64,000 nt of DNA from Enteroscipio rubneri (GTDB lineage Bacteria > Actinomycetota > Coriobacteriia > Coriobacteriales > Eggerthellaceae), in assembly GCF_002899715.1 (NCBI RefSeq), contig NZ_PPEK01000001.1, positions 248,001 through 312,000 of the forward strand, written 5' to 3'. Within the stretch, counting starts at the first letter, position 1; every line of letters starts with the position of its first letter. Positions 1,592 through 19,846 of this stretch are shown here, in pieces. Under the pieces are notes generated by a model, which saw nothing but the letters and a program-made list of their open reading frames with translations, did no database searches and was not told where the DNA came from. A program made the translations under genes and the position numbers.

Positions 1592-1599
1592 CGGAAACT

Positions 1600-4116: not shown

Positions 4117-4785
4117 GTGAACACGAAGACGAAGCGTCGCATGGTCGTGGTGACGGGCGTCATCATCATGGTGCTCGTCGTTGTCTTGGCCGTTGTTGGC
4201 GGTTCCGGTTCGGCAAAGCCGGTGGCCATCTCCGACCTGACGACCGGAAACTACGCCGACCAGAAGATCCAGGTATCCGGCAACGTGGTTGAGAACTCGT
4301 ACAAGACCGAGGACAACACGCTAACCTTCGATATCTACGACGCGAACGGCGATGCCGCCCAGCACCTTCAGGTTCGTTACGAAGGCGGGGTCTCGGCGAC
4401 GTTCGGCAACGATGTGACCGCCATCTGCACGGGCAAACTGGGTCAAGACGGCGTGCTCAACTGCACCGAGCTCGTCACGAAGTGCCCGTCCAAATACGAG
4501 AACGCGACGAGCGCACTCACGATCGATCAGCTGCTGGGGTACGGCGGCGACATCGTCGGTACAACCGTGAAGGTGGCGGGCGTCGTGAAGGACGGCACGC
4601 TGACGGCGGCCGGCGGAGGAGACCGGTTCGCGCTTGTCGATGCCGAGAATCCCGGTAGCGAGTTGGCCGTGCTGTTCGACGGCGCACTCTCCGAGGAGAT
4701 AGCCGACGGCTCTGCGCTCGTCCTGACCGGCTCGCTGGACGAACAGGGAAGGTTCTCTGCGACGGACGTGGCGCTGGAGGGGTAG
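4117..4785 (+). CDS. ccmE: CcmE heme chaperone, CXXXY variant with a second OB-like domain
   Basis: CcmE takes heme from the CcmABCD complex and hands it to CcmF for attachment to apocytochromes on the outer face of the membrane. This 222-residue protein has one N-terminal TM helix (about 9-30). An OB-fold-like domain at about 36-130 ends in C-P-S-K-Y-E, so the usual heme-binding His of HXXXY is a Cys. CXXXY is the known variant in some Desulfovibrio, other anaerobes and archaea (System I*). Residues about 135-222 (from L-T-I-D-Q-L-L-G-Y) form what looks like a second, degenerate OB domain, making the protein longer than the typical 140-160 residues. GTG 4117 is preceded by GAGGAG at 4105-4110. 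It is the first gene of the ccm cluster. Confidence 0.85.
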   Translation: MNTKTKRRMVVVTGVIIMVLVVVLAVVGGSGSAKPVAISDLTTGNYADQKIQVSGNVVENSYKTEDNTLTFDIYDANGDAAQHLQVRYEGGVSATFGNDVTAICTGKLGQDGVLNCTELVTKCPSKYENATSALTIDQLLGYGGDIVGTTVKVAGVVKDGTLTAAGGGDRFALVDAENPGSELAVLFDGALSEEIADGSALVLTGSLDEQGRFSATDVALEG

Positions 4786-4845
4786 GGCCGCTTGGGGCTC
4801 GATAGATATGTCGATGGGCGGCGCGCCGCCTCGGAAGGATAGCGC

Positions 4846-7209
4846 ATGTCAACATTCGGTTTGATCGGACTGCTCGTCGCGTTTGCGGGCGTGGTCGTGT
4901 CCGTGGTGTGCCTCGTGGCCGGCGCGCTCGTGTCACGTGCGGGGCGCAGCGACACCGGGGACACGCTCACCTGGGGTGGACACGTGGCGTCGTTGCTGTC
5001 GTTCGCGGGTCTCACGGTATGCTGCGGCGTCTTGGTGTACTGCTTCATGACGGGCGATATGACCATCGAGTACGTGCTCAACCAGCATAGCGATGCTTCA
5101 GGCGATATGGCTTGGCTGTACAAGCTGTCGGGATTGTGGGCTGGGCGCCAAGGGTCACTCCTGTTCTGGGCGTGGCTCATTGCCGCGTTCAACTCGCTGG
5201 TTGCGGTGCGCAACCTCAAGCGCACGGCCAAGCTGGACTCCATGGCGCTGCTTGTCGCTCAGCTTGTTCTGGCCGCCTTCGTGGGAGTCATGTTGTTCTC
5301 GGAGAACAACATGCCGTTCACGGTGACGCCTGCCAGCTACTTCACCTCAGACGGAACGCTGACGGCCGCGGCGTCGATGTACGGCATGAACACGCTGTTG
5401 GAACACTGGGCCATGGCCATCCATCCCCCTACGCTGTTCGTGGGCTATGCCGGCCTCACCATCCCGTTCGCCTATGCCATCGCGGCGCTTATCGTGAACG
5501 ATCCGTCGAAGGAATGGGTCGTGCGCTCGCAGCGCTACGCACTGTTCGCATGGTTCTTCTTGGGCGTCGGCATCGGTCTGGGCGCGGTCTGGGCCTATGT
5601 TGTGCTCGGCTGGGGGGGGTACTGGGGCTGGGATCCCGTCGAGAACGCGAGTTTGCTCTCATGGCTCGTGGGCGTGGCGCTCATTCATAGCTTCACCGTG
5701 TACCGCCAGCGCGGCGCATTCAAGCGTTGGAGCGTGATGTGCGCGTGCCTGACCTTCGCGTTCGTCATCGTGGGCACGTTCATCTCGCGTTCGGGGCTTG
5801 TGCAGTCGGTGCATGCGTTCGAGGGCGATCCGGTGTCGGTGGCGCTGTTCGGGGTTCTCATCGTCGTGCCGATCGCGGCGGGCATCGTCGGTTTGATCGC
5901 GCGCTGGAAGAGCTTCGGTCCGGGAACCGCCGGGGGCGACGACGTCGACAGCATGGCGTCGAAGGACGCTGCGTACTACTTCAACAACGTCATCATGGTG
6001 GTGTTCGCCTTCTTGTTGGCGTACCTCACCATCTCGTCGGCGCTGCCCGAGATTCCTTTCGTGCTGTTCAGCGGCCAGACCGTGTCGGCCGGTACGTACA
6101 ACGCCATCGCGCGGCCCCTCGGTGTGCTCTACCTTGCCATCTTGGCGGTTTGCCCGCTGCTTTCATGGGGCAAGACCGATGGCGCACAGTTCTGGAAGCG
6201 CGCTCGCGTTCCGGGCGCCTGCGCCCTCGTGCTGTTTGTCGTGCTCATGGTATATTTCTTCACGTATCTGCTGCCCGGCTACGAGGCCATCGTGGCTGCC
6301 GGTGGAACGGAGGCCGAGGGCCTCTTGGAACAGGGTCCGGCATGGTATTACAACGGCTTGGCAGTCGTGGGCTTTCTCGTGGCCAGCGCGCTGTTCTTCA
6401 ATTCGCTGTTCATGCTGGGCCGGGGCATCCGCGCGTACCGTGCGAGCAAGGGGGGCGGCATCGTGTCCGCCGCCTTCGGCATGCTGATAAATCGCGCGTC
6501 GACGTTCGGGGGTTTTCTGGCGCACTTCAGCATGGCCATCATCCTTGTCGGCCTTATCGGTTCGTCGATGTACGTGACCGAGGTCACGGGGTACGTGGGC
6601 TACGATAGCGAGACGGACACCGCGTCCGAGGACTTTGTCATCAAGGATTACACGCTCTCCTATACCGGCAACTCGATCGAGCAGCAGGATAATGGCGACG
6701 ACATCGACTACACCGTGTTCTTCGACGTCTACAAAGACGGCGAATACGTGGGTTCGGTGAATCCCACCGTCCAGCTGGTGCAGTCGACGCAGCAGCAGAA
6801 GCTCGTGGCGAGCGTGATCTCGTTCCCCTTGGAAGACCTGTTCGTGGTGTATCGGGGTGTCAACGACGCGGGTGACTTCTCGATGGACGTGCGGGTGAAT
6901 CCGCTCATCTCGCTCGTATGGATCGGCTTTGCTCTGCTCATGGCGGGCATCGTGGTGGCCACGTTCGGCCGTCGCGGCGCTCGTCGTAAGCGTGTAGGCG
7001 ACGAGAGCCAGGACGGCGGCAAGAACGTCGCCGGGCATGGGGATGCGCCTGCGCCGAACGCGGGCCGGCAGGATGGCGTCGTGGTGGCCGCCGCCTACGA
7101 GGCTGTTGCGGTGAGCGACGGCGAGAAGGTTATGGTGGAGGAGAAGGTCGTGGTCGCGGAGGCTGCGCGCATCGTCGATGCCCCGGCCGACGAGGAGAAG
7201 AAGGGCTAA
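4846..7209 (+). CDS. ccmF: CcmF cytochrome c heme lyase subunit
   Basis: CcmF is a polytopic member of the heme-handling protein family and completes the thioether attachment of heme to CXXCH motifs. The 787-residue protein has a dozen or more TM helices. The family signatures are W-A-G-R-Q-G-S-L-L-F-W at about 102-112 and the tryptophan-rich WWD motif W-G-G-Y-W-G-W-D-P-V-E-N at about 256-267. After the last TM helix (about 685-705) there is a roughly 80-residue charged tail rich in Glu, Lys and Val that is unusual for the family. ATG 4846 is preceded by GGAAGG. The ccmA gene starts one base after its stop codon. No ccmH or ccmG gene occurs in the cluster, so CcmF may act without the usual thiol-reducing partners, as in System I*. 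Confidence 0.93.
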   Translation: MSTFGLIGLLVAFAGVVVSVVCLVAGALVSRAGRSDTGDTLTWGGHVASLLSFAGLTVCCGVLVYCFMTGDMTIEYVLNQHSDASGDMAWLYKLSGLWAGRQGSLLFWAWLIAAFNSLVAVRNLKRTAKLDSMALLVAQLVLAAFVGVMLFSENNMPFTVTPASYFTSDGTLTAAASMYGMNTLLEHWAMAIHPPTLFVGYAGLTIPFAYAIAALIVNDPSKEWVVRSQRYALFAWFFLGVGIGLGAVWAYVVLGWGGYWGWDPVENASLLSWLVGVALIHSFTVYRQRGAFKRWSVMCACLTFAFVIVGTFISRSGLVQSVHAFEGDPVSVALFGVLIVVPIAAGIVGLIARWKSFGPGTAGGDDVDSMASKDAAYYFNNVIMVVFAFLLAYLTISSALPEIPFVLFSGQTVSAGTYNAIARPLGVLYLAILAVCPLLSWGKTDGAQFWKRARVPGACALVLFVVLMVYFFTYLLPGYEAIVAAGGTEAEGLLEQGPAWYYNGLAVVGFLVASALFFNSLFMLGRGIRAYRASKGGGIVSAAFGMLINRASTFGGFLAHFSMAIILVGLIGSSMYVTEVTGYVGYDSETDTASEDFVIKDYTLSYTGNSIEQQDNGDDIDYTVFFDVYKDGEYVGSVNPTVQLVQSTQQQKLVASVISFPLEDLFVVYRGVNDAGDFSMDVRVNPLISLVWIGFALLMAGIVVATFGRRGARRKRVGDESQDGGKNVAGHGDAPAPNAGRQDGVVVAAAYEAVAVSDGEKVMVEEKVVVAEAARIVDAPADEEKKG

Positions 7210-7210
7210 C

Positions 7211-7933
7211 GTGGGCAGCGTGGAGGCCGCGATCAGGACGAAGAACCTTTCGAAGGTGTTCGGGAACCGCAAGGCGGTGGACAAGGTGTCCATCGAGGTT
7301 CCGCAGGGCGCATTCTTGTCTATCTTTGGGCCAAACGGCGCAGGAAAGACAACCCTGCTGCGCGTGCTATCCACGCTGTCGCGCGCCACGTCGGGCGAGG
7401 CCGCGCTCATGGGCGTCGACCTGAAGGAGGAGCCTGACAGGGCGCGCGAACACATCGGGCTCATTTCGCACAATTCGATGCTCTACCCGGACCTCACGGC
7501 GGAGCAGAACCTCATGATCTACGCGCGCCTGTACGGGGTGGTCGATCCAGAGGAGCGCGTCATGGAGCTCTTGGAGGCGGTGGAGCTCAAGCACCGCCGC
7601 CTCGACGCGGTTCGCACGTTCTCGCGCGGCATGACGCAGCGTCTCTCCATCGCCCGCGCGCTCATCCACGACCCGGACGTGGTGTTCCTGGACGAGCCGT
7701 ATTCGGGGCTCGACCCGCATGCGGTCGAGATCTTCGACGAGCTCATCGAGCAGCAGCGCGATGGCCGCACGTTCGTCATGGTGAGCCACGACCTGCAGAA
7801 GGGCTTTGCCATGTGCACGCACGCGCTCGTGCTGGCGAAGGGCAAGGTGGTCGCGTTCGACAAGAAGGAAGCATTCGACTTCGATGATTTCGCGGGGCTC
7901 TACCGCGCGACAGTCGGTATGGGGGTGGCCTAG
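7211..7933 (+). CDS. ccmA: CcmA, ATPase of the heme-release ABC transporter
   Basis: This is the 240-residue ABC ATPase that powers release of holo-CcmE from the CcmBC complex at the inner face of the membrane. Visible motifs are Walker A (G-P-N-G-A-G-K-T-T, about 38-46), a signature helix F-S-R-G-M-T-Q-R-L-S (about 138-147), Walker B (V-V-F-L-D-E-P, about 157-163) and the H-loop (V-S-H-D-L). The start is taken at GTG 7211, one base after the ccmF stop and in frame with a longer open frame that runs back into ccmF. Coupled translation with ccmF is likely. Length and motif order are normal for the family. Confidence 0.92.
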   Translation: MGSVEAAIRTKNLSKVFGNRKAVDKVSIEVPQGAFLSIFGPNGAGKTTLLRVLSTLSRATSGEAALMGVDLKEEPDRAREHIGLISHNSMLYPDLTAEQNLMIYARLYGVVDPEERVMELLEAVELKHRRLDAVRTFSRGMTQRLSIARALIHDPDVVFLDEPYSGLDPHAVEIFDELIEQQRDGRTFVMVSHDLQKGFAMCTHALVLAKGKVVAFDKKEAFDFDDFAGLYRATVGMGVA

Positions 7934-7934
7934 T

Positions 7935-8687
7935 ATGGCGGCGCGGAAGGAGGCTGCCATCCGAACGGCAGGAGGGGTGGCCATCAAGAGGCCCTCAACG
8001 TTTCAGCAGTACAAGACGCTGTTGCGCAAGGACCTGGAGCAGGAGTTCCGCACGAAAGAGATGCTTACCTCCATGGGTATCTATGCGCTGCTCGTGCTCG
8101 TCGTGTACGGGGCTGCACTCGCGCAGACCTCGAGCACGCTCGATATCCTGCAGATGAGCGGCGGCCTTTTGTGGGCGCTTATCGTGTTCACATCGCTTCT
8201 AGGCCTCAATCGCTCGTTCGCTCACGAGAAGGAGCAGGGATGCCTCGAGGGCATTCTGCTCGTGCCGATGGATCGCTCGGTGGTGTTCCTGGCAAAATCG
8301 ACGTCGAACCTCCTGTTTTTGCTGGCGGTGGAAGTGATCGCCGTGCCGCTGTTCTACTTCTTCTTTTTAACCACGACCACGCCCTCGGAAAGTTTCTGGC
8401 TGCTCGCAGTGCCGCTTGTCGTGGGCACCGTCGGGGTGGCAGGAATCGGCACGCTTTTATCCACCATCACCGTGAACACGCGTGGCAAGGACGTGATGCT
8501 GGCGGTGCTGTTCATCCCTCTCGTGTTCCCGCTACTGTACGCGTGCGTGTCGGCCACCAGCGCGGCAATCGTCGGAGCGGAGGGATACGCGGACGTGCTG
8601 TTGACGTCGCTGGCGCTCGCGGGAGGCTACGATGTGATCATGATCCTCGCCTCGTGGGTACTGTACGATTTTGTGATAAGCGCTTAG
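7935..8687 (+). CDS. ccmB: CcmB, heme-release ABC transporter permease
   Basis: CcmB is the membrane partner of CcmA and, with CcmC and CcmD, forms the complex that loads and releases heme-CcmE. The 250-residue protein has about six TM helices and the conserved early segment L-L-R-K-D-L-E-Q-E-F-R-T-K-E-M-L. This is followed by the cytoplasmic loop E-K-E-Q-G-C-L-E-G-I-L-L-V-P, both characteristic of CcmB. ATG 7935 lies one base after the ccmA stop codon. Length is slightly above the usual 220 residues because of a 20-residue N-terminal extension. Confidence 0.9.
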   Translation: MAARKEAAIRTAGGVAIKRPSTFQQYKTLLRKDLEQEFRTKEMLTSMGIYALLVLVVYGAALAQTSSTLDILQMSGGLLWALIVFTSLLGLNRSFAHEKEQGCLEGILLVPMDRSVVFLAKSTSNLLFLLAVEVIAVPLFYFFFLTTTTPSESFWLLAVPLVVGTVGVAGIGTLLSTITVNTRGKDVMLAVLFIPLVFPLLYACVSATSAAIVGAEGYADVLLTSLALAGGYDVIMILASWVLYDFVISA

Positions 8688-8699
8688 GAGAGGAGCCGT

Positions 8700-9470
8700 A
8701 TGACCGAGGTAACGAAAAAGACGCCCAAGCTGCCGGAGGCGGGCCAGTGGCCCGACCGGATCGCGCCGGCGGTGCTCGTCGTGGGTATCGTGCTGTCGAC
8801 GATCGGCTTTCTGCTGGCGTTCTTGTGGGCCTCGCCCGTCAATGGCGCTGGGGTGAACGGCGCCGAGATGATCGGGGGCCAGATGGTCACCAACGTGGTG
8901 CTACTGTCGCAGAAGATATTCTACTTCCATATGCCGGTGGCCATCACGTCGTTCGTGGCGCTCGGATTCGCAGGTTATTACGCGGTGCGGTTCCTTATGA
9001 CTCGGAACCGCCGTTTCGACACGTGCTCGAAGATCGCGATGGAGATCGCACTTCTTTTCGTGGCATGCACGATGATCACGGGCGATCTGTGGACGCGTTT
9101 CGAGTGGGGCGTGTGGTGGACGTGGGATCCGCGTTTGACCACGTACCTCATCCTCATGCTCATCATCATCGCGTACTTCATTCTGCGCAACGCCATCGAC
9201 GAGCCGGAGCGTCGTGCGACATTCGGCGCGGTGCTCAGCATCATCGCACTCATCGACGTGCCGATCTGCTTCATGGTGACGCGCCTCATCCCGTCGAGTA
9301 TCCACCCGGTGGTCGTGCGCGAGGGCGGCATGTCGGGAGATATGGGCATCACGCTCATGTTCTGCCTTGCGGGCATCGCGATGATTGGGTTTGCGCTGTA
9401 CCGCCTGCGTTTCCGGCAGGTCCGGCTGACCGAGCGCGTTGAGGTGCTGAAGGAGCAGCTGGAAGACTGA
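8700..9470 (+). CDS. ccmC: CcmC, heme-handling membrane protein
   Basis: CcmC is the heme-handling subunit that binds heme and transfers it to CcmE. The 256-residue protein has six predicted TM helices. The WWD motif (W-G-V-W-W-T-W-D-P-R-L-T, about 136-147) lies between two His-bearing loops, H-M-P near residue 80 and S-I-H-P near residue 202, which are the expected axial heme ligands. The C-terminal helix ends in a charged stretch. AGGAGAGGAG precedes ATG 8700, and the gene begins 12 bases after ccmB. All key features of the family are present. Confidence 0.93.
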   Translation: MTEVTKKTPKLPEAGQWPDRIAPAVLVVGIVLSTIGFLLAFLWASPVNGAGVNGAEMIGGQMVTNVVLLSQKIFYFHMPVAITSFVALGFAGYYAVRFLMTRNRRFDTCSKIAMEIALLFVACTMITGDLWTRFEWGVWWTWDPRLTTYLILMLIIIAYFILRNAIDEPERRATFGAVLSIIALIDVPICFMVTRLIPSSIHPVVVREGGMSGDMGITLMFCLAGIAMIGFALYRLRFRQVRLTERVEVLKEQLED

Positions 9471-9679
9471 GCGTCCCGCCGCTCTCTGCAGTACGGCGTT
9501 TCGTGTGCTGAACGGAGGGGCGGTTCGACGCTGCGGTTTCCCACAGCGCGTCGCCTTGCCGCCTGTGCGCTTGGCATCGCCTACAAAGCATGCTCGGCCG
9601 CACATCATGGCATCTCGGAGCGCTGCGGGAAACCTGCTGACGCATACGTTCGACCTACGAGATAGAAGGAGATCAAACC

Positions 9680-9865
9680 ATGAATCCGATTCTCACCGAG
9701 ATATACAGCACCATCGTCCCGTCAATGCCCTTCATCATCGGAGCATACGTGCTCATGTGGGTTGCTTTGCTCGTGTACGTGCTCATCATCATGGTGGGGT
9801 ACAAAAAAGCCGAGGCGCAGATGGCGGTATTGGAAGAGGCTGTTGCTGAGAGGCGTGCGGATTAG
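9680..9865 (+). CDS. Small single-TM protein, CcmD-like
   Basis: This is a 61-residue protein with one TM helix (about 17-40) preceded by a short polar N-terminus and followed by a charged tail ending in a likely amphipathic helix (A-Q-M-A-V-L-E-E-A-V-A-E). Size, topology and position after ccmC match CcmD, which tethers CcmC to CcmE and to the ABC transporter. CcmD proteins are too short and variable for sequence alone to prove this. AGAAGGAG sits nine bases before ATG 9680. The 209-base gap after ccmC is longer than the other spacings in the cluster, and I see no other gene in it. Confidence 0.6.
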   Translation: MNPILTEIYSTIVPSMPFIIGAYVLMWVALLVYVLIIMVGYKKAEAQMAVLEEAVAERRAD

Positions 9866-9890
9866 CGGGACGGCGACCGTCAGTCTGCGC

Positions 9891-9900
9891 GTGCTACAAT
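9891..9900 (+). promoter_or_regulatory. Probable promoter -10 for galU
   Basis: GTGCTACAAT combines a TG extension with the -10 hexamer TACAAT (9895-9900), about 145 bases before the galU start. No good -35 hexamer is visible at the normal distance, as is common for extended -10 promoters. Confidence 0.5.
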
Positions 9901-10045
9901 AGCGCATCGAACGAAGTCGGAGCACTGTTTGCGCGGTGTTTCGCGTGTATTGACTGCGAGCACGAGCGCTTGGTTCGTGTGGAACAATGTGCTGCGACGA
10001 CTCAGATGTCGTCTGTCCGCTCAGCTTAGAGAAAGGTTATCGCCC

Positions 10046-10870
10046 ATGAAGGCTCTCATTCCCGCTGCCGGTCTCGGCACGCGCTTCCTGCCCGCCACGA
10101 AAGCGCAGCCCAAAGAGATGCTGCTCGTCGTCGACCGCCCGGCCATCCAGTACGTGGTGGAGGAGGGCCTCGCGTCGGCTGCCGACGAGGTGGTCATTAT
10201 CAACAGCCGCGAGAAGAAGGCCATCGAGGAGCACTTCTCGCCGAATTCGGAGCTGGTGGAGCTGCTGCGCGCCCGCGGCAAGGACGCGTACGCCGACCTC
10301 GTGGAGCGGGTGGGCAACTACAACGTGAGCTACGTGTACCAGGACGAGGCGCTGGGGTTGGGCCACGCCGTGCGCTGCGCGGCCGAGAAGACGGGCGACG
10401 AGCCGTTCTACGTGCTGTTGGGCGACGTGCTGGTGCCCGACAACAAGATGCTGCCGCGCATGCAGGAGGTGTCCGACGCGCACGGCGGCGCCAGCGTGAT
10501 TGCGGTCATGCCGGTGCCCGACGACCAGGTGAGCCGCTTCGGCGTCATCGCGGGCGCAGCTGTGGAGGGCGAGCCGGACGTATGGAAAGTCGACGCGCTC
10601 GTGGAGAAGCCGGCGCTCGAGGACGCGCCGTCGAACTTGGCCGTGTTCGGCCGCTACCTGCTCTCGCCGCGCGTGATGGAGCTCCTGGCCGACGTGGAGC
10701 CCGGCGTGGGCGGCGAGATCCAGCTGACCGACGCGCTTGACGCCGTACTGCGCGAGGAGGAGATGTACGCGCTGGTCATCGACCCGTCCGACGGCTTCGA
10801 CACGGGCACGGTGGAAAGCTGGCTCGAAACGAACAACGTTCTGTTCCGTCGCGCTGCCGAGCGGCGATAA
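10046..10870 (+). CDS. galU: UTP--glucose-1-phosphate uridylyltransferase
   Basis: GalU makes UDP-glucose from UTP and glucose 1-phosphate for cell-surface polysaccharides and galactose metabolism. The 274-residue protein begins with the nucleotidyltransferase motif G-L-G-T-R-F-L-P-A-T-K (about 9-19) and continues with P-K-E-M-L. Family-typical segments follow: E-A-L-G-L-G-H-A-V near 105, L-L-G-D-V near 131, and E-K-P in the middle of the protein. The start at ATG 10046 has AGAAAGG upstream; the frame is open further back but without an SD. It stands alone between its own promoter and a terminator shared with the convergent TetR gene. Confidence 0.92.
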   Translation: MKALIPAAGLGTRFLPATKAQPKEMLLVVDRPAIQYVVEEGLASAADEVVIINSREKKAIEEHFSPNSELVELLRARGKDAYADLVERVGNYNVSYVYQDEALGLGHAVRCAAEKTGDEPFYVLLGDVLVPDNKMLPRMQEVSDAHGGASVIAVMPVPDDQVSRFGVIAGAAVEGEPDVWKVDALVEKPALEDAPSNLAVFGRYLLSPRVMELLADVEPGVGGEIQLTDALDAVLREEEMYALVIDPSDGFDTGTVESWLETNNVLFRRAAERR

Positions 10871-10882
10871 GCCCGATGCCGC

Positions 10883-10916
10883 GGGACGCCCTCGTACCGA
10901 ATTTAGAGGGCGTCCC
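10883..10916. terminator. Bidirectional terminator between galU and tetR-like gene
   Basis: GGGACGCCCTC (10883-10893) and GAGGGCGTCCC (10906-10916) form a perfect 11-bp stem with a 12-base loop between convergent genes. The last codons of the TetR-like gene, read in its restored frame, overlap the right arm. Confidence 0.75.
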
Positions 10917-11576
10917 GTTCTGATCCCAGGCCGTCGATCGTGTGCTTGATGCAGGTGTGCGCGTAATTCCAGTATGGATTGAGCGCCTCTTGCATGATGT
11001 CCTTTCGCGTGTGGCCGAAGTGCCACTGAAGCCTTCCGAAAATACCCATCACATGGTACTCCGCAAGGAAATTGAGGACGTCCGGGGGGGGGTGGGCCTG
11101 TTCCCCAGCATAAAAAGAATGTCGTCCTTTATGGTGGGAACATATAGGTTCACCAGGTACTCGAACAGATTGTTATACGAATTCGCGTCGGTTCGGAACA
11201 TGTTCGCGTAGTACACCCGATTGTCCACCCAGTGATACGTGATCGCCTTGAAGTACGGGCCCTGCGCAAGAAACCGGTCCTCCGTTTCTATCCGCACGTA
11301 AAACGGCCAGTCATCGTAGGGATCTTGCAGTTCAGGATGAGGTTTCACCTGCGGATATTCGGCGAATTGCGTTTCGATTATCTTCTTGAACGCAGAACGG
11401 AATATCCAGATGACAAGGTTGTCGACGTTCTCGAAATAATAGTAGAACGTCTTACGCTCGCATCCGATGGCGTTCGTGATGTCGACGACGCTCACACGAT
11501 GATTGCACGGCGTTTCCGTGACCAGGTGCATGAACGTGTCGGCGAATTCCTGCCTTCGGGTACCTTTGACACTCAT
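10903..11576 (-). pseudogene. TetR-family regulator interrupted by a frameshift at a nine-G tract
   Basis: The minus strand encodes a TetR/AcrR-like repressor. An N-terminal helix-turn-helix region contains V-S-V-V-D-I-T-N-A-I-G-C-E-R-K-T-F-Y-Y-Y-F (about 29-49), and a ligand-binding half follows. Translation from ATG 11576 (AAGGAG seven bases upstream) runs to residue about 160 and then enters a homopolymer of nine C on this strand (plus-strand G at 11084-11092). In the present frame it ends at 11049 after a meaningless tail. One frame over, the sequence continues with a natural-looking C-terminus (F-L-A-E-Y-H-V-M-G-I-F-G-R-L-Q-W-H-F) down to TAA at 10905-10903. A tract of seven or ten bases would restore one protein of about 224 residues. 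It is divergent from the oxidoreductase operon at 11860 and probably represses it. The shift may be real, a phase-variation state, or a sequencing error. Confidence 0.75.
11084..11092. repeat. Nine-base poly-G tract inside the tetR-like gene
   Basis: A run of nine G on the plus strand (C in the coding direction) lies exactly where the reading frame of the TetR-like gene breaks. Runs of this length are prone to slipped-strand mispairing. Confidence 0.85.
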
Positions 11577-11859
11577 GCTATCACTCCTTGCGAAGGGCAT
11601 CGAGTTCAGTTCGGATTTCGGGATTGGTTAGTACGCCCATTATAAAATGGTGCACAAAAAACAATTCGTTTTTTATCAACCCAGTTTCCTGATTGTGGGT
11701 CTTGATACCTGCGGTACCACCCATAATCTCGGTTCTGGTCATGGATTTCTTCAGCTTGAACCCAGTTCCCGCGATGTGGTTATTCTTATGCATCCGCACA
11801 AATTCATACACTTCAGCTACCTCGAGGAACAAGGTCCAATCTAGATCAGAGGAGGAGAC

Positions 11860-13437
11860 ATGGCTGGAGGAACGTACGATTTCGTCGTGCTCGGAGGCGG
11901 TCATAACGGCCTGCTGACCACTGCGTATCTGGCGAAGGCGGGTTTCAAAGTGTGCTGCTTGGAGGCGAACGCCGAGTTTGGCGGCGGCACGCGCTCTGAA
12001 GAAATCGCGCCGGGTTACATCGCCGATACGGGCGGCATGGTGCACAATATGATCTCGAAGACTCCCATCGTCCGCGGTGACGAGCTGGGGCTGTTCTCCA
12101 AATACGGTTTGGAATACTGTTATCTCGATTCGCTGTTCTGCTCCATCTTCCCCGATGACACGAACCTGATCATGACGAAGGATCTCGATCAATCGTGCCA
12201 GAACATTGCGAAGTTCTCGGAAAAGGACGCCGAGACGTATCGCAAGTTCAGCCAGTACATGGGCAACATGCTCGCCGTCGCAGGCGTCGGATCTCAAGCG
12301 CCGCCGCCGAAGTACGGCGCCATGATGAATGTTATGAGCATGAGCCCCGAAGGGCGGGAGTTCCAGCGTGTGCTCAATTCTTCCGCGCAGCAGATCGTGG
12401 AGGAATGGTTTGAAAGCGAGCAGGCGCGCGTCACGTTCACCCGGTGGTGCACCGAGATGATGATCGATCCTCGCGCCATCGGCACGGCTACGCTGCTGTA
12501 CTTCACGTCCGCTCTGCACGATCCCTCAAACCCCGGAGCACCGTTCCCCAAGGGAGGATGCATCAACTTCGTGAACGCGCTCAAGGCCTGCTGCGAAGAC
12601 AACGGGGCCGACTTGTTCGAGAATGCGTGGGTCGACGAGATCAAAGTGGCGGGCGGCGAAGTCAAGAGCGTTCGCACCAAGAACGGCGACGAGTACATTG
12701 CCGAGAACGCAATCGTCAGCACAATCAATATCAAGTCCGTCTTCGACATGCTGGGCGACGATGCCCCGGCCGAGGACGCCCACTACGTGAAGATCCTCAA
12801 GCACAACGACTTCATGGCCCTCAACCAGGCCTTCGCGCTGAGTAAGGTGCCGGAGTTCAAGACGGGCCCCGAGGTGTACGGGACGTTCTGCATCGAAGCC
12901 GCCCCCTGGGAGGCCGAGTACCTCGAGACGTTCAGCAAGTACACGCTCGGCTGCTTCAGCCCGAGGCTGCCCCTCATCACTATCCCGTCGCTCACCGATC
13001 CGACGCGTTGCCCCGAAGGCCACAGTGTGGTGAACGTGTACAGCTATGCGCCGTGGAACCTCGACGGCGATTGGCGCAACTGGGAGACGAAGGGCGACGA
13101 GCTGAAGAAGCAGGTGTGGGATTTCTTCAAGAGCATGACCACCAACATTACCGACGACGACATCATCGCAAAGTGGGGCAAGACGCCGCTTGAGTACACG
13201 GAATGGAACCCCGCGTTCCTCCATGGCGACATCGGCCAGATCGGCATGCAGCCCAGCCAGATGTACGATATGCGTCCCATCGTGGGCAAGGGACACCAGT
13301 ACCATGGCGATATCGAGAACCTGTACTTCCTGGGCAGCTCGAGCCATCCCGGCGGCGGCATCGCGGCCGGTGCGCGCGCGGGCGTTCAGAAGGTGCTCGA
13401 AGATTACGGCATCGATTTCCGCGACATTGTGAAATAG
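11860..13437 (+). CDS. FAD-dependent oxidoreductase of the phytoene-desaturase/carotenoid-isomerase family
   Basis: This is a 525-residue soluble flavoprotein. An N-terminal dinucleotide-binding motif reads V-V-L-G-G-G-H-N-G-L (about 8-17), with E-A-N at about 38-40 closing the adenosine-binding beta-strand. The C-terminal FAD segment is S-S-H-P-G-G-G-I-A-A-G-A-R-A-G. This pairing of motifs defines the COG1233-type group, which includes phytoene desaturases and many uncharacterised bacterial oxidoreductases. No carotenoid genes are nearby, so pigment synthesis is unlikely. The substrate cannot be deduced, but the MFS transporter two genes downstream suggests an imported compound. AGAGGAGGAG precedes ATG 11860. 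It is first in a probable three-gene operon, divergent from a TetR-like regulator 283 bases away. Confidence 0.8.
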   Translation: MAGGTYDFVVLGGGHNGLLTTAYLAKAGFKVCCLEANAEFGGGTRSEEIAPGYIADTGGMVHNMISKTPIVRGDELGLFSKYGLEYCYLDSLFCSIFPDDTNLIMTKDLDQSCQNIAKFSEKDAETYRKFSQYMGNMLAVAGVGSQAPPPKYGAMMNVMSMSPEGREFQRVLNSSAQQIVEEWFESEQARVTFTRWCTEMMIDPRAIGTATLLYFTSALHDPSNPGAPFPKGGCINFVNALKACCEDNGADLFENAWVDEIKVAGGEVKSVRTKNGDEYIAENAIVSTINIKSVFDMLGDDAPAEDAHYVKILKHNDFMALNQAFALSKVPEFKTGPEVYGTFCIEAAPWEAEYLETFSKYTLGCFSPRLPLITIPSLTDPTRCPEGHSVVNVYSYAPWNLDGDWRNWETKGDELKKQVWDFFKSMTTNITDDDIIAKWGKTPLEYTEWNPAFLHGDIGQIGMQPSQMYDMRPIVGKGHQYHGDIENLYFLGSSSHPGGGIAAGARAGVQKVLEDYGIDFRDIVK

Positions 13438-13445
13438 GCTCGCAC

Positions 13446-13476
13446 CGCCGGGGGCGCCTCTGTGGCGCCCCCGGCG
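13446..13476 (+). other. Strong intercistronic hairpin
   Basis: The 13-bp stem CGCCGGGGGCGCC / GGCGCCCCCGGCG with loop TCTGT lies nine bases after the oxidoreductase stop codon. It lacks a T-run, so it may attenuate or stabilise the transcript rather than end it. Confidence 0.6.
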
Positions 13477-13504
13477 CGAGCCTCGCCTGAGGAGGATCTG
13501 GATC

Positions 13505-13792
13505 ATGGCTGGAAAACCGAAGAAGAAGCCTTCGATCACGGCACGTACAGAGGATGGAAGCCCGGTCGTCGAAGTGTACAGCATGAGGTTCGAGGACGGA
13601 AAGCTGATTATGGATTGCAAGGCTTTGGGCAGTATGCGTATGGACGTGGTGGTGGCTCCTGAGGATGTGGCGGAGGGTTGGCCGGTCATCAAGGAGAGCA
13701 GATCGGCGATCATGGCCTTCGGCAAGCGCGTTCCGAAAGCACTCAGGATCTGGAAGAAAGCGCAGAAGGAAACGCCATCGGAGCAGTCATGA
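13505..13792 (+). CDS. Hypothetical 95-residue protein in oxidoreductase operon
   Basis: This is a small basic protein that starts with a Lys-rich segment (K-P-K-K-K). A compact, probably beta-rich middle follows (V-V-E-V-Y-S-M-R-F-E-D-G-K-L-I-M-D-C), and the C-terminus is helical and basic. It has no signal peptide or TM segment and no family that I recognise. ATG 13505 has GAGGAGG about ten bases upstream. It lies between the flavoprotein and the MFS gene and is probably co-transcribed with both. It could be an accessory subunit of the oxidoreductase, which is only a guess from position. Confidence 0.6.
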   Translation: MAGKPKKKPSITARTEDGSPVVEVYSMRFEDGKLIMDCKALGSMRMDVVVAPEDVAEGWPVIKESRSAIMAFGKRVPKALRIWKKAQKETPSEQS

Positions 13793-13864
13793 TGCCTGCG
13801 AGGCTTCTGCGCCTTCGTCCAAGCGCGCCGAGGGGATCGCATCAATCGTATAGAGGAGGTTGGA

Positions 13865-15121
13865 ATGGGTACTCAGGGGAAGAAGAGCTTTTTTCCTTAC
13901 CTGGTCGTGGCGACCGGCATCGTCGGCTGTTTCGCGCCGTGCGCTCTGGCGCTCAGCTGCGCGGGCATATACTTCACGCCGGTTAGCGAGGCGCTGGGTG
14001 TGGGGAGGGGCGTGTTCGCGCTGTACCTCACCATCATGCTGCTTTCGACGACGTTCTCTCTGCCGTTTTTAGGAAAGCTCATGGAAAGCAAGGATTTGCG
14101 CGTGGTGCTTTCGGCCGCGGTAATCCTTATCGGCGTGCCGCTTATCTGCATGTCGTTCTTCAACCAGGTGTGGCAGTTCTACATTGCCGGGGCGTTCATG
14201 GGAGTCGGGCTTGCCGTGCTGCTTATTCTCGCCGTGCCGACGCTCGTCAATCGATGGTTCAGGAAGAATGTGGGCTTTTTTATCGGGCTGTGCATGGCGT
14301 TCACCGGCATCGGCGGCGTGGTGTTCAACTTGGTGGGAGGCGCCCTCATAGCGAGCGGTCCCGATGGCTGGCGCATGGGCTACTTGGTATTCGGCGTCAT
14401 CGCCCTGGTTCTGGCATTGCCGTTCACGTTGTTTTGCGTGCGCAGCTATCCGAGCGATATGGGACTCGATCCGGTTGGAGCAGAAGAGGCCGCTGACGGC
14501 TCCGCAGCGCCTGCCGCGCTCTTCGGCGTGACGGCATCGGTGGCCATGAAGACGGCGGCGTTCTTTCTTGTGGCCATCTTTGCGGGTCTGATTAATCTTG
14601 CTATCAACTTCTATCAGTATCTTCCTTCGTATGCGGCGTCGCTTACGCAGTTCCCGGACGTCGTTGCCATTTCGGCTACGCTCGCGTCGGCTGCCATGCT
14701 CGGTCAGGCTATCGGCAAAGTGGCGCTGGGCATCATCAACGACAAAGCCGGCGTGTTTGCCGGGCTGTTCGTGTCCACGGGCTGCGGTGTGATCGGCCTC
14801 GCGATCATGTGGCTCGTCCCGGGGTCGGTGCCGGCGATGCTGGCCGGCGGATTCGTGTTCGGCGTATTCTACGCAAGCGCAACCGTGCTCGCTCCGCTTG
14901 TGGTTCGCACCATCTTCGGCACGCGCGAGTACTCTACCATCTATTCGCGCATTTCGATGGTAGGCTCGTTCGCAGGGGCGTTTGCGGCAAGCGTATGGGG
15001 CTTCGTCGTCGACGCTGCCGGTTTCTCGAATGTGTTTGTCATCGGCATCGCGGGCGCGATTCTCGTGGCTGTATTCGGATCGCTCGCGCTCGTTTCCAAG
15101 AAGAGCATTCCTGCCGACTGA
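13865..15121 (+). CDS. Major facilitator superfamily transporter
   Basis: This is a 418-residue, 12-TM permease of the MFS, closest in feel to the oxalate/formate and monocarboxylate antiporter branch. The first helix starts at about residue 12, and a central cytoplasmic loop around 200-215 (E-E-A-A-D-G) divides two six-helix halves. Small residues are abundant in helices 1, 4, 5 and 11, as is usual for this fold. AGAGGAGG precedes ATG 13865. It is the last gene of the operon headed by the FAD oxidoreductase and ends at a strong terminator. It probably moves the oxidoreductase substrate or product. The substrate is not identifiable from sequence. Confidence 0.8.
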   Translation: MGTQGKKSFFPYLVVATGIVGCFAPCALALSCAGIYFTPVSEALGVGRGVFALYLTIMLLSTTFSLPFLGKLMESKDLRVVLSAAVILIGVPLICMSFFNQVWQFYIAGAFMGVGLAVLLILAVPTLVNRWFRKNVGFFIGLCMAFTGIGGVVFNLVGGALIASGPDGWRMGYLVFGVIALVLALPFTLFCVRSYPSDMGLDPVGAEEAADGSAAPAALFGVTASVAMKTAAFFLVAIFAGLINLAINFYQYLPSYAASLTQFPDVVAISATLASAAMLGQAIGKVALGIINDKAGVFAGLFVSTGCGVIGLAIMWLVPGSVPAMLAGGFVFGVFYASATVLAPLVVRTIFGTREYSTIYSRISMVGSFAGAFAASVWGFVVDAAGFSNVFVIGIAGAILVAVFGSLALVSKKSIPAD

Positions 15122-15197
15122 GGCTTCGCCGGCCGGACGGCGAAGCTCCGCGCCGCGCGACGCAAGGCTACGATTTGAGACAATTCGCGGCGCGAGA

Positions 15198-15240
15198 AGA
15201 TGCGCCCTCGAAACGGGCTCGCCCGTTCGAGGGCGCATCT
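15198..15240. terminator. Terminator between convergent MFS and dehydrogenase genes
   Basis: AGATGCGCCCTCGA (15198-15211) pairs with TCGAGGGCGCATCT (15227-15240), with an inner ACGGGC/GCCCGT and a two-base loop; one A is bulged. It lies between convergent genes and can serve both directions. Confidence 0.8.
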
Positions 15241-15291
15241 GCGGAGCGCCGTATCCGATGCGGCGCACGGGGCGCGGCGCCGCTCGGCGGT

Positions 15292-16254
15292 TCAGTCGAC
15301 CACGTTCTGCGGCTTTCCTTCGACGAAGGCTCCCACGTTTGCGGCGACGGTGGCCAGCAGGCGCTCCCGTGCCTCGTGGGTGGCCCAGGCGATATGGGGC
15401 GTGATCACGATGTTCATGCCCTTCGCCTGCAGAAGCGGGTTGTCGGGGCGCATGGGTTCCGCCGACACCACGTCGGCGCCGAAGCCGGCCAGCTTGCCCG
15501 AGCGCAGCGCGTCCACGACCGCCTGCTCGTCCACGAGGGTGCCGCGTGCGGTATTGAGCAGGAAGGCGCCGTCCTTCATGCGCGCGAGCGTCGCGGCGTT
15601 CATCATGCCTTTTGTATCGGGCGTGGCGGGTACGTGCAGCGACACCACATCCGCCACGGCCAGCAATTCACCGAGGTCCACTTGGCGCACGTCGTCGCCT
15701 TCCAGCTGAGGCTTGGGCGAGCGGTTCTCGAACACCACTGGCATGCCGAACGCGCGCGCGATGCGACATACGGCTTGTCCAATACTGCCCATTCCGACGA
15801 TGCCGAACGTCCTGCCCGCCAGCTCCACAAGCGGCGTGTCCCAGAACGAGAAGTCTTTCGCACGCGTCCAGGCGCCGTCCATGACGAGGCTGGAATGCTT
15901 GCCTACGTGCAGGCACAGCTCCAGCAAGAGCGCAAATGTCATCTGCGCCACATCGGGAGTGGAGTAGGCGGGCACGTTGGACACCACGATGCCTCGCTCA
16001 CGCGCCGCGTCAAGGTCGACCACGTTGAAACCGGTGGACGTGAGCGCAATCATCTTGAGGTGGGGCGCCCATGCGAGCGCTTCGGCGTCCCAGGCGATCT
16101 TGCTCGACACGGCGACGTCGGCATCGACCACGCGAGCGGCAAGCTTTTCGCGCGGCGTGCGATCGTACACGGTGACGTTCCCGTAGCGCTTCAGCGCGTC
16201 CCAGCTCAGGTCGCCGGGATTGTTCACGTATCCTTCGAGGACGACGATGTTCAT
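15292..16254 (-). CDS. D-2-hydroxyacid dehydrogenase (glycerate dehydrogenase/hydroxypyruvate reductase type)
   Basis: This is a 320-residue NAD(P)-dependent enzyme that interconverts a 2-oxoacid and its D-2-hydroxyacid. The Rossmann motif G-M-G-S-I-G lies at about 150-155, and the catalytic set is Arg in T-A-R-G-T-L-V, Glu in S-A-E-P and His in T-P-H-I-A-W-A. The order N-terminal flavodoxin-like half, NAD domain, C-terminal return is normal for the family. The start at 16254 has AGGAGG five bases upstream. A longer frame upstream has no SD and runs through the small RNA gene. Hydroxypyruvate, glyoxylate or a related acid are plausible substrates; sequence alone does not choose. Its own promoter is marked separately. 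Confidence 0.88.
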   Translation of the reverse strand: MNIVVLEGYVNNPGDLSWDALKRYGNVTVYDRTPREKLAARVVDADVAVSSKIAWDAEALAWAPHLKMIALTSTGFNVVDLDAARERGIVVSNVPAYSTPDVAQMTFALLLELCLHVGKHSSLVMDGAWTRAKDFSFWDTPLVELAGRTFGIVGMGSIGQAVCRIARAFGMPVVFENRSPKPQLEGDDVRQVDLGELLAVADVVSLHVPATPDTKGMMNAATLARMKDGAFLLNTARGTLVDEQAVVDALRSGKLAGFGADVVSAEPMRPDNPLLQAKGMNIVITPHIAWATHEARERLLATVAANVGAFVEGKPQNVVD

Positions 16255-16364: not shown

Positions 16365-16496
16365 AAAATGAGATCGGCCCGGGGAGAGGGGAGCTCCACC
16401 GGGCCACAAGGAGGGGATGTGCGGTGTCGTAACACCGCTTCTGCTTTAAGGGGTAAGCAGAAACAAACTGAAAGGAGGGGATTCTTTCGTTTGCTG
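16365..16496 (-). ncRNA. Candidate structured small RNA, copy A (C-rich loops)
   Basis: A TATACT -10 box (16507-16502, minus strand) is followed by about 130 bases that fold into four or five hairpins. Hairpin 1 is GAAAG/CTTTC with loop AATCCCCTC. Hairpin 2 is TTCTGCTT/AAGCAGAA with loop ACCCCTTA. Hairpin 3 is GCGGTGT/ACACCGC with tetraloop TACG. A short CACA/TGTG hairpin has loop TCCCCTCCT. A terminator GGCCCGG/CCGGGCC follows, leading into GATCTCATTTT. A second copy at 19482-19601 keeps the same order. Hairpin 3 is GCGACGC/GCGTCGC with TTCG there, so base pairs covary while a UNCG loop is kept, which also fixes the strand. The C-rich loops resemble the anti-SD CCUCCUUU of 16S rRNA. The function is probably post-transcriptional; it is not a family I recognise. 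Confidence 0.7.
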
Positions 16497-16501
16497 TAGC
16501 C

Positions 16502-16507
16502 AGTATA
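16502..16507 (-). promoter_or_regulatory. -10 box of small RNA copy A
   Basis: TATACT on the minus strand is followed by GGCTACAGCA; copy B has TATACT followed by ACAGCA. The region just upstream (GTCAA versus GTGAA) is also similar between copies. No consensus -35 is seen. The 305-base stretch from 16497 to 16801 holds no gene besides this promoter. Confidence 0.5.
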
Positions 16508-16801
16508 AAGCTTGACATTGCAGATGATATGTGCAAGCCATGCATGTTTTGTGAATTGCGGGGCTTGAAAGTAACAAATAGGTAAATTCCGGTATCACTG
16601 CAAAGCCGCTGATCGATTGGGCAAATAGAAACAATCGGCACCGTCGATTGAACGCGACATCCACGGTGAACGGGAAGGAGCCAGGACGGGATCGGCAAAA
16701 GAAGCGAGCGGCATCAAACCTTCGAAGCGCCAGTGCTTTTCAAAAAAGAGGCGTCGTTTCAGGACGGGTTGAGCGCGTGGCGGCTTTGCGCATTCGGGCA
16801 T

Positions 16802-18091
16802 TCAGGCGCCCAGCGTACCGCGGGCGTTCCACAGCGCCTTGGCGATGCCGGACACGAAGGCGTCGTTTGTCTCGCTCTCGGGAACGTCGGTCATGATGGT
16901 CATCAGATAGGCCCGATCGCCCTCGACGATGATGCCGGCATCGATGGTGGCGTTCGTATCCTCTCCGCTGATCCAGCCGGCCTTGTCATACACCGTTATA
17001 GGCTCGCTCGGCTCTTCGATGGCGATGCTGTAAGCTTCGTAGGCGCTATCGGCTGCGGAGAGCACGCGCTCTGCTCCCTGCGAGCTTTCGTCGATCGAGA
17101 TTGCAATTTCAGCCCCGTCTTCCTTCGGCGCGACGGCATCCCTAATCATGGAGCGCTCCGTGCTGCCCAGGAGCTGCTGCGCCCACTCCACGATCTCAGG
17201 ATCGCCTGACTCGAGGTACTGGTACGCGTTCATCCAGAGTTTGAGCGAGTCGCGCGGCGTGTAATGGGGAAACGCGGTGTCGTTGGCAAGGCTCGGATCG
17301 ACGTTCAGGTTCGAAAGCCAATGCTCGAGGCTGACCGAGCCGTATCCGTCGCATGCCCGGCGGAGCCGATAATACGACGTATTGTCGGACCAGGTGATGG
17401 TGTCGGCGGCAAGCTGGTCGATGGAGGAGATGGATCGGTTTCCCGGTTCGAGAACCTCCTGGCATGCGTAGATGAAGAACGGTCCCTTGAACGACGAGGC
17501 GCCGTACAGTTCGGCATCGATATTGTACGCGTAGCCGCTGCCTGTTTGCAGATCGAAGAAGCAGAACCCGACGGTGCGCTCATTGTAGGAGAAGGGAAGG
17601 AGCGCCGCTTCGAGAGAGATATGCTGGCCGGGCTCAAGCGAAGGGGTATGACCCGTGCCTTCGGCTGCAAGGGAGAATCCTGTTATGTTCGTGCCGGGAT
17701 CTGCAATGGCGTCGAGGCTCTCGATAGAGGGCGCGTATTCGGCAGTCGAAGCGGGCTCGCTTTGCGCATCCTCCTCTTCGCTCGAGAAAAGCGGGCCGAC
17801 CAAGCCGCTTTGGTCTGCCGCGGCGCTTTCTGCCGAGAGCAAGACTCCTGGGACGACGAAGACACCCAATACGACGACGAGCGCGCCGACGGCAGCAAGC
17901 GCGAGGGGCCGAGGTATGCGCGACCAAAAGGAGGCCGTCTGGTGCGAACCGATGTATACCGGTGCGGCGCCCATCGGCCGCATCGAGACACGTGGGAGCT
18001 CGCCGCGCACCCGACGCGGGCGGCGCATATTCGCATGTGGGGTTCGCATGTCCCGCCTGGAAGAGAATCCTGATGTCGTTTTGTCACGCAT
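16802..18091 (-). CDS. Exported serine hydrolase of the beta-lactamase/D,D-peptidase fold
   Basis: This is a protein of about 429 residues with a basic cytoplasmic N-terminus, one TM/signal-anchor helix (about 64-86), a low-complexity acidic linker and an extracellular domain. That domain shows the three landmarks of class A beta-lactamase-like enzymes: S-S-F-K (SxxK, catalytic Ser and Lys), S-D-N (W-S-D-N-T) and a KTG-like D-K-A-G-W near the C-terminus. Such proteins cleave beta-lactams or act on peptidoglycan stem peptides. Replacement of KTG by KAG makes classical beta-lactamase activity uncertain. The start is not secure: ATG 18091 lies close behind a TGCTACC -10-like sequence and has no SD, so the mRNA may be leaderless; ATG 18052 is an alternative. 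It is monocistronic on the minus strand. Confidence 0.7.
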   Translation of the reverse strand: MRDKTTSGFSSRRDMRTPHANMRRPRRVRGELPRVSMRPMGAAPVYIGSHQTASFWSRIPRPLALAAVGALVVVLGVFVVPGVLLSAESAAADQSGLVGPLFSSEEEDAQSEPASTAEYAPSIESLDAIADPGTNITGFSLAAEGTGHTPSLEPGQHISLEAALLPFSYNERTVGFCFFDLQTGSGYAYNIDAELYGASSFKGPFFIYACQEVLEPGNRSISSIDQLAADTITWSDNTSYYRLRRACDGYGSVSLEHWLSNLNVDPSLANDTAFPHYTPRDSLKLWMNAYQYLESGDPEIVEWAQQLLGSTERSMIRDAVAPKEDGAEIAISIDESSQGAERVLSAADSAYEAYSIAIEEPSEPITVYDKAGWISGEDTNATIDAGIIVEGDRAYLMTIMTDVPESETNDAFVSGIAKALWNARGTLGA

Positions 18092-18207
18092 GCGTACACG
18101 GTAGCATGCATATTTGCGATAATGCAACGGTTCGGAAGCCGAACGGCTCAAACCGCCCGCTCGATCCGATGGTTGGTCGGCGATTCCAGCCCGAATGAGG
18201 GCGGCGG

Positions 18208-19344
18208 CTACGAAGCGCCTGCGTGCGCCTGTTCGTCGTCGCATGGCGCGTCGCACGCGATGCCTGCGGCTATGGGCACATGCGCCTCTGCCGCCGCTGC
18301 ATTCTCCAGATCGCGTGCGCCTCTGCGCAGATACGCGCGCAGCGCCCCAAGTGCCGCCGTCTGCTCGGGGGCAAGCCGGCCGCTTGCGCGGTTCCGCTTG
18401 ACGCTCGCCCAAAGCAAACCCAGGAAACGCGCTACGACGACGGAGATGATGGCGGTTGCCAGCAGCAGCTGCACGCCGGCGAGCTGCTGCGCCGCCCAGG
18501 CTGCGCCCGAGTATCCGGCGGCGGCGAAAGCGGACGCGAACCGGTCGGTCGCCAGCAGCCCCACGGCCATGGGGAACGTCATGCCCGCATACCCCGGATG
18601 AAACGCGACTGAGAAAAACTTCGGCAGCTTGGCCACGACGTACACGAGCGATGCGGCGACGCAGGCGAACAGCGCTGCCACGATCGGCAGACACGGTTCT
18701 GTGAACGCGTTCACGTACGAGACCAGGCACATACTGCACGGCCCGAGCATGATGGCCTGCGAATGCATTGCAGCTTCAGCGACTTCGCAGCGTCTCATGC
18801 GCCACAGCATGAACGGCGTCACCGCCAGATAGATGCCGATGCCCCAGACCACGATTCCGGCTGCAAGCGGTTCGGGCATGAACGCCATCCCTGCAACCGT
18901 GGATACCATGACGCCGTTCGTGGTGACGTACCAGCTGGGCATGAACGTCTTCCATTCGAAGCGCTTCACGAAGAAGCGCACGAAGAACACCGCCACATGG
19001 GCGAACAGGAGCGCCAGCATCGCGAAGAACACGATCTTGAACGCCGTCCAGGCGCCGGGTGCTATGCTCGCCCCGTAGGCGCACAGCACCATAACGAGCA
19101 TAGGGAGGGTGGGGTAGAGCGCGGCGAGCATGGGGTTTGCGTACTCGGCCGCCACGACGCTTTTCAGATGGAACGCGATTTTCAGGCAGTATGCCAACGC
19201 GACGACGGCCGCAGCCAGTGCGGCGACTGCGTGCACGAGCGGGAAGCCGAGCGAGTCGTAATATCCGCTCAGCACGAGCAGGCCGAGCGTGGCCGGAACC
19301 GCCGGCAGCGGCAGCCGGGAGACGGCTTCCTGTATGTTCGTCAT
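18208..19344 (-). CDS. TDT-family (TehA/SLAC1-like) membrane transporter
   Basis: This is a 378-residue membrane protein with about ten TM helices. It resembles the tellurite-resistance/dicarboxylate transporter (TDT) family, whose members include the anion channel TehA and C4-dicarboxylate or sulfite exporters. Helix-rich blocks are separated by short loops, with an Arg-rich loop around 190 (R-M-R-R-C-E). An extra cytoplasmic tail of about 50 residues is rich in Ala, Arg and acidic residues. GAGGAGG lies eight bases before ATG 19344, and a TACTAT -10 box is found 35 bases upstream. The transported ion or acid cannot be told from sequence. The gene lies directly downstream of small RNA copy B, just as the dehydrogenase lies downstream of copy A. 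Confidence 0.75.
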   Translation of the reverse strand: MTNIQEAVSRLPLPAVPATLGLLVLSGYYDSLGFPLVHAVAALAAAVVALAYCLKIAFHLKSVVAAEYANPMLAALYPTLPMLVMVLCAYGASIAPGAWTAFKIVFFAMLALLFAHVAVFFVRFFVKRFEWKTFMPSWYVTTNGVMVSTVAGMAFMPEPLAAGIVVWGIGIYLAVTPFMLWRMRRCEVAEAAMHSQAIMLGPCSMCLVSYVNAFTEPCLPIVAALFACVAASLVYVVAKLPKFFSVAFHPGYAGMTFPMAVGLLATDRFASAFAAAGYSGAAWAAQQLAGVQLLLATAIISVVVARFLGLLWASVKRNRASGRLAPEQTAALGALRAYLRRGARDLENAAAAEAHVPIAAGIACDAPCDDEQAHAGAS

Positions 19345-19377
19345 AAACCCTCCTCAACGCTGCTCTGTCATTCGCTC

Positions 19378-19383
19378 ATAGTA
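19378..19383 (-). promoter_or_regulatory. -10 box of the TDT transporter gene
   Basis: On the minus strand GTGTACTATG contains the hexamer TACTAT (19383-19378). It lies between the terminator of small RNA copy B and the transporter start, indicating separate transcription. Confidence 0.45.
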
Positions 19384-19481
19384 CACCCGGCAGTTCCGCT
19401 GCGCGGCGGAACGGCCGAGAAGCTTAGGCGCGCGTTCGCCCGCAAGCTCGCAGCGGGGATGCGGAATCGCATATGCGGAGA

Positions 19482-19601
19482 TAAAAGAACGGCCCGGGGA
19501 GAGGGGAACTCCGCCGGGCCACAAGGAGGGGGTGCGACGCCGAAGCGTCGCTTCTGCTTGTACAGCAGGCAATCGAAGGGAGGGGGAGTCGTTCGACTGC
19601 A
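19482..19601 (-). ncRNA. Candidate structured small RNA, copy B (C-rich loops)
   Basis: This is a paralogue of the RNA at 16365-16496, same strand and same order of elements. After TATACT (19613-19608) come four elements. Hairpin 1 is TCGAA/TTCGA with a loop containing CTCCCCCTCCC. Hairpin 2 is CTGCT/AGCAG. Hairpin 3 is GCGACGC/GCGTCGC closed by the TTCG tetraloop. A CAC/GTG hairpin has loop CCCCTCCTT. A terminator GGCCCGG/CCGGGCC follows, leading into GTTCTTTTATC. The segment from CTCCTTGTGGCCCGG through CCCCGGGCCG is almost identical to copy A, while hairpins 1-3 differ in sequence but keep their pairing. Conservation of structure over sequence is strong evidence for a functional RNA. No open reading frame of note occurs in it. 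Confidence 0.7.
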
Positions 19602-19846
19602 TGCTGTAGTATAGAAGTTCACGTTGGAAAACCTATGATCGCCCCATGTGCGTCTTGTGTAACGGGGCCGAACCGTCGGTGAGCGAGAGCGGAATCGCCG
19701 CCGGCGCATGAGCCCCGCCTTGGAGATGGTGCGCAGCGCGATTGCGGTTCTCGAACCCATGCCGAGCTTGGTTCGCGGGCTCTTGTCGAAAGGGCGCGCG
19801 CTGCTTCGTTCTTTTGGTATGATGTCAGCCGAGGAAAGGATTGGAT

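Follow-up and report, generated by a model that had tools for sequence, protein, structure and literature searches.

A previously uncatalogued small RNA family with conserved anti-Shine-Dalgarno sites in Eggerthellaceae

Two similar segments on the minus strand of a 64-kb stretch of the Enteroscipio rubneri genome, hereafter the window, raise the question of whether they specify structured RNAs and, if so, which kind of RNA this is. The initial annotation had described them as paralogous small RNAs sharing a -10 box, the same order of hairpins and a nearly identical terminator, and all of these features are indeed present in the sequence, as are the covarying base pairs of hairpin 3. Covariance model R1 places copy A at positions 16367-16501 (140.9 bits, E 1.1e-32) and copy B at 19482-19607 (100.9 bits, E 1e-22), both on the minus strand and both part of the training set of the model; exactly these two copies were found in the E. 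rubneri genome. Their folds are much more stable than those of dinucleotide shuffles (z -5.8 for copy A, z -7.6 for copy B; 0 of 200 shuffles) and further homologues exhibit covariation, which bears out the proposal that the minus strand specifies a structured RNA. The product of a gene located between the copies (16802-18016, minus strand) contains a beta-lactamase-type domain (PF13354).

Copy A is made up of four hairpins and a single-stranded linker. Sequence and fold define hairpin 1 (16461-16494, minus strand as for all elements named here), which presents the C-rich anti-Shine-Dalgarno (anti-SD) loop AAUCCCCUCCUUUC and is kept across the sRNA family, and hairpin 2 (16438-16460), which consists of UUUCUGCUUACCCCUUAAAGCAG with a CCCC loop and covaries in the alignment. 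Hairpin 3 (16420-16437) carries a loop, UACG in copy A, that is variable according to the fold, the family alignment and the loop count. It is followed by the linker (16406-16418) with the anti-SD site AUCCCCUCCUUGU, predicted to be single-stranded and conserved by the family-wide count of CCTCC, and by the terminator hairpin (16376-16405) with a CUCCCCUCU loop and a weak U tract. In copy B, the linker (19521-19533) contains the anti-SD site CCCCCUCCUUGU, the C run of which is unpaired in the fold, and the terminator hairpin (19491-19520) has a UUCCCCUCU loop and the U tract UUCUUUU. Hairpin 2 of copy B is short and lacks a C-rich loop, and in the minimum-energy fold hairpin 1 is extended into hairpin 2.

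A simple nucleotide search among 60 relatives added ten genomes with copies, which frequently lie in close groups of two or three. With a covariance model built from 35 sequences, the search for homologues suggested in the initial annotation detected the sRNA in 101 of 140 Eggerthellaceae genomes and in 35 of 48 genera, with one to four copies in each genome carrying the family. The covariance model gave no match except in Eggerthellaceae in a draw of 297 genomes from the phylum, and an exact 20-base pattern matched Gordonibacter, Paraeggerthella, Eggerthella sinensis, Rubneribacter, Adlercreutzia and other Eggerthellaceae in the GTDB collection and nothing outside this family. As far as searched, the sRNA family is restricted to Eggerthellaceae; the many-genome searches used strict filters and included few genomes from the other families of the order, such that very diverged relatives could escape. 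A phage or mobile origin was also considered and rejected, as neither phage records nor viral contigs yielded a match. Synteny is conserved: the copies are flanked on one side by nrdG, nrdD and a gene resembling S-methyltransferases, and on the other by galU, which was identified by its sequence; lineage-specific genes (for a SLAC1-type channel, a 2-hydroxyacid dehydrogenase and others) separate the duplicated sRNAs. This conserved neighbourhood indicates vertical inheritance with local duplication, and tandem duplication would have given rise to the varying copy number. One relative (G097, locus L124, positions 1-15933) features four copies over about 11 kb with gene blocks in between, the whole array being bracketed by S-methyltransferase/nrdD and galU.

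In a model-based alignment of 95 distinct sequences, two-sided compensatory changes are found for all of the 34 model pairs, 95.9% of the alignment cells are paired, and covariation scores 0.368 versus 0.138 for shuffled alignments and at most 0.069 with partners slid, figures that have to be read with the bias towards structure of an alignment fitted to it. In an unfitted alignment evaluated with RNAalifold, 14 of 25 pairs already exhibit two-sided changes. The MAFFT alignment by itself set hairpin 2 one base off in roughly every second row, and counts were therefore taken from the model-based alignment (A2). A clear compensatory change is seen at the outermost pair of hairpin 2, which is U-A in 33 and A-U in 25 cases. 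The covariation that the initial annotation had expected of true homologues is thus present and favours an RNA. Its proposal of a UNCG loop as a conserved hallmark had to be abandoned, as UNCG occurs in only 4 of 94 hairpin-3 loops and this loop is free to vary across the family.

What stays constant while the stems change are C-rich anti-SD sites, mostly unpaired according to structure prediction, and these sites, overlooked previously, are the main conserved feature of the RNAs. By position, they read UCCCCUCCUU in hairpin 1, AUCCCCUCCUUGU in the single-stranded linker and CUCCCCUCU in the terminator loop; their number per RNA is three, often four. The linker contains CCTCC in 93 of 94 copies, with a mean of 92% predicted to be unpaired. 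In hairpin 1, it is found in 76 of the 94 copies, with CCCC in 13 more, and the terminator loop contains CCCC in 83 of 94; both sites are mostly unpaired in the predicted folds. The 16S rRNA of E. rubneri ends with the usual sequence CACCTCCTTTCT, and the C-rich sites therefore qualify as anti-SD sequences. The RNAs thus combine conservation, lack of pairing and complementarity to the host Shine-Dalgarno sequence, as is characteristic of trans-acting anti-SD sRNAs. Two genomes of one genus (L102, 3001-3127, and L109, 3001-3129, both minus strand) have a long terminator hairpin from which the C-rich loop has been lost, while the sites in hairpin 1 and linker are kept; the strongest constraint accordingly falls on the linker.

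In the promoter of copy A (16502-16557, minus strand), the -10 hexamer TATACT (16502-16507) is preceded by an element of 11-bp-phased repeats (16518-16557), and the same arrangement is found upstream of copy B (19608-19663, minus strand; TATACT at 19608-19613, repeats at 19624-19663). Alignment of 94 upstream regions on the -10 box revealed no TTGACA but a 38-bp element, TTCACAAAAC...CAC...CATA...TTCAA, in which CA recurs as a conserved step at -46, -35, -24 and -13 from the first T of the -10 box, i.e. exactly 11 bp apart. A promoter matrix from which the window had been left out scored 60.0 for copy A and 57.2 for copy B and did not exceed 0 in the rest of the 64 kb, with 3.7 as the highest score among ten shuffled windows. 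When the consensus was searched with up to three mismatches in eight genomes, six of them gave 2, 2, 3, 3, 3 and 2 matches, all beside an sRNA, so that in these six the element occurs once per sRNA and nowhere else; two more distant genomes gave no match, and the element may have drifted there. The phasing suggests a regulator of the OmpR/PhoB type, which would bind four half-sites at 11-bp steps and thereby control transcription.

Both copies in the window lie upstream of a gene on the same strand, for a 2-hydroxyacid dehydrogenase and a SLAC1-type channel, respectively, an arrangement that would suit a cis-acting leader or attenuator. Among the genomes, however, the gene that follows varies, and in many cases it is an oppositely oriented galU or a further sRNA copy; a strong terminator closes each copy, and the family alignment contains no conserved competing antiterminator. 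As many copies point at the convergent galU, they are not leaders, which rules out this function for the family as a whole, and we regard the leader reading as highly improbable; independence of the sRNAs had been claimed from the outset and gains from these relatives. As judged from the -10 box with its upstream element, the terminator and the convergent neighbours, the RNAs appear to form stand-alone transcription units. The architecture of the promoter brings up another idea, namely that the sRNA is a phosphate-starvation RNA and its repeats a PhoB/PhoP box, which would be compatible with a trans-acting anti-SD sRNA. Activation of the PhoB type relies on 11-bp direct repeats ending 10 bp before the -10 box in promoters without a TTGACA -35 box, the layout seen here. 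The window itself contains a PHO-box-like direct repeat, CTTTACCCGAATTTGACCGG, at about 40340-40375 upstream of pstS (starting at 40475, plus strand), and nearly the same sequence, CTTTACCAAGATTTGACCGG, precedes pstS in another genome (G109). Since pstS carries a different repeat, the sRNA element is not a pst-type box; moreover, the sRNA element occurs at no other site in the window or in the genomes searched. A PHO box as source of the repeats is not supported, and we regard the phosphate-starvation reading as very unlikely.

Proteins rather than mRNAs could be the partners of the C-rich loops, in which case the RNA would serve as a sponge or scaffold for an RNA-binding protein. Several identical exposed motifs in each RNA, multiple copies per genome and strict conservation of the motif would all fit such a role. 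We know of no candidate protein recognizing C-rich loops, which we count against it, and the match of the motif to the complement of the Shine-Dalgarno sequence is exact. In addition, similar RNAs of proven function act through base pairing (PMC10746234, PMC10470900), and protein binding appears unlikely to us, if less so than the two alternatives discussed above. We favour trans-acting sRNAs of about 120-150 nt, each equipped with a separate promoter and an intrinsic terminator, in which the stems would be scaffolds presenting three, often four, anti-SD sites. These sites would base-pair with mRNAs at AAGGAGG(GG) ribosome-binding sites, block binding of the 30S subunit and so repress translation of many genes. 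Each sRNA would act through several redundant seeds and without Hfq, which was not detected in four genomes of sRNA carriers.

Which mRNAs may be bound was approached by prediction. In one genome (G098; 400 kb taken as 20 evenly spaced stretches), pairing of the linker reaches a median of -12.4 kcal/mol at predicted start regions versus -7.7 kcal/mol for coding controls; every anti-SD sequence would be expected to give such a difference, which is no sign of regulation. The full complement AAGGAGGGG precedes ATG at 9, 5 and 17 start sites in three genomes, two of the 17 being the antisense strand of the sRNAs themselves, and a reversed-pattern control yielded 0-1 per strand. The strict 10-nt complement AAGGAGGGGA was discarded as a conserved target because, after removal of the sRNAs' own antisense matches, it is found before ATG in 0-4 genes per genome and in none common to all. 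Full complements of 9-10 nt before ATG are few and mostly genome-specific rather than common, which weighs against the favoured reading. Translation of the genes with AAGGAGGGG sites revealed three molybdopterin oxidoreductases, two orthologous DcuC carriers, RnfD, NrfD, a 2-oxoacid-oxidoreductase-like TPP subunit, an FAD/FMN flavoprotein and two multihaem cytochromes, along with transcription regulators, a permease, a glycosidase and phytoene synthase; a third multihaem cytochrome, from G004, came from the search with AAGGAGGGGA. Among 100 random predicted genes of G098, FAD_binding_2 occurs six times, and the molybdopterin, NrfD and cytochrome families are absent from the families with at least two members. 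The best-matching ribosome-binding sites hence seem to tilt to genes for anaerobic respiration, a suggestive lead from a grouping made post hoc. Beside copy B, the SLAC1-type channel gene has the ribosome-binding site TTGAGGAGGGTTTATG (19345-19357, minus strand), which is largely complementary to CCCUCCU, and this neighbour could itself be a target.

Eggerthellaceae are anaerobic, mostly gut bacteria, and Eggerthella, Gordonibacter and Adlercreutzia are gut members known for their metabolism of drugs and polyphenols. Tentatively, one may imagine a family-wide regulon in which multi-copy anti-SD RNAs, governed by one dedicated regulator that serves sRNAs only, tune translation of enzymes of anaerobic respiration and electron transfer, including molybdopterin oxidoreductases, NrfD, Rnf, multihaem cytochromes and flavoprotein reductases. 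We consider this possible though doubtful; if true, the sRNAs would set the translation of enzymes that Eggerthellaceae live on. A search of the open-access literature, which leaves aside most subscription papers, found no described sRNA in Eggerthellaceae. The gain is a defined family-wide sRNA for which the seeds are clear and both a dedicated promoter element and candidate targets are at hand.

How does this sRNA relate to characterized ones? The initial annotation had recognized no described family, and Rfam agrees in returning no match at gathering score; ar14, ar7, sX13, sR42, Pab160 and others all stay far below it. sX13 of Xanthomonas (RF02232) is a C-rich hairpin sRNA that differs in phylum and sequence, and the weak full-length match of copy A to its model (14.9 bits versus a gathering score of 50) is at chance level. 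Much closer in design is ar14 (RF02344; NfeR1 of Sinorhizobium, with the related 'cuckoo' RNAs), for which repression by anti-SD pairing has been experimentally proven (PMC10746234) and which combines ultraconserved unpaired anti-SD motifs and redundant seeds with highly differing stems and independence from Hfq (PMC10746234; PMC3927594). Like the RNAs described here, it has several hairpins with variable stems and unpaired anti-SD sequence, measures about 120 nt, is Hfq-independent, as the Eggerthellaceae RNAs would be, and is preceded by a conserved promoter stretch (PMC10746234, PMC3927594). In the Eggerthellaceae, too, the stems are free to change while the unpaired anti-SD sequence is conserved. 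The ar14 model nevertheless matches copy B only weakly over its full length (25.6 bits versus a gathering score of 58.8), with no match listed for copy A. The Eggerthellaceae motif is UCCCCUCC(UU) whereas that of ar14 is CCUCCUCCC; instead of identical CCUCCUCCC motifs in three hairpin loops, there is one main site in a linker, the terminator loop reads UCCCCUCU, hairpins 2 and 3 are extra, and phylum and promoter element differ. From the same phylum, 6C RNA/B11 (RF01066) offers redundant C-rich loops directed at ribosome-binding sites and chaperone-free action, with repression via these loops experimentally proven (PMC10470900). It has two hairpin loops with runs of six C, whereas we find three or four sites that read as anti-SD, with C runs typically of four or five and interrupted as CCCCUCC; Rfam gave no match to RF01066 for both copies up to E = 10 and for four relatives up to E = 1. 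Because Rfam score, motif and layout all fail, the RNAs are placed outside ar14 and 6C. They constitute a new, previously uncatalogued sRNA family and, judging from anatomy and analogy, work like a known kind: they are probably Hfq-independent trans-acting sRNAs that block ribosome-binding sites in the manner of alphaproteobacterial ar14/NfeR1 or actinobacterial 6C while being a member of neither. The ar14-type design of many anti-SD seeds on freely changing stems therewith exists also in a distant actinobacterial lineage, one in which no Hfq was detected.
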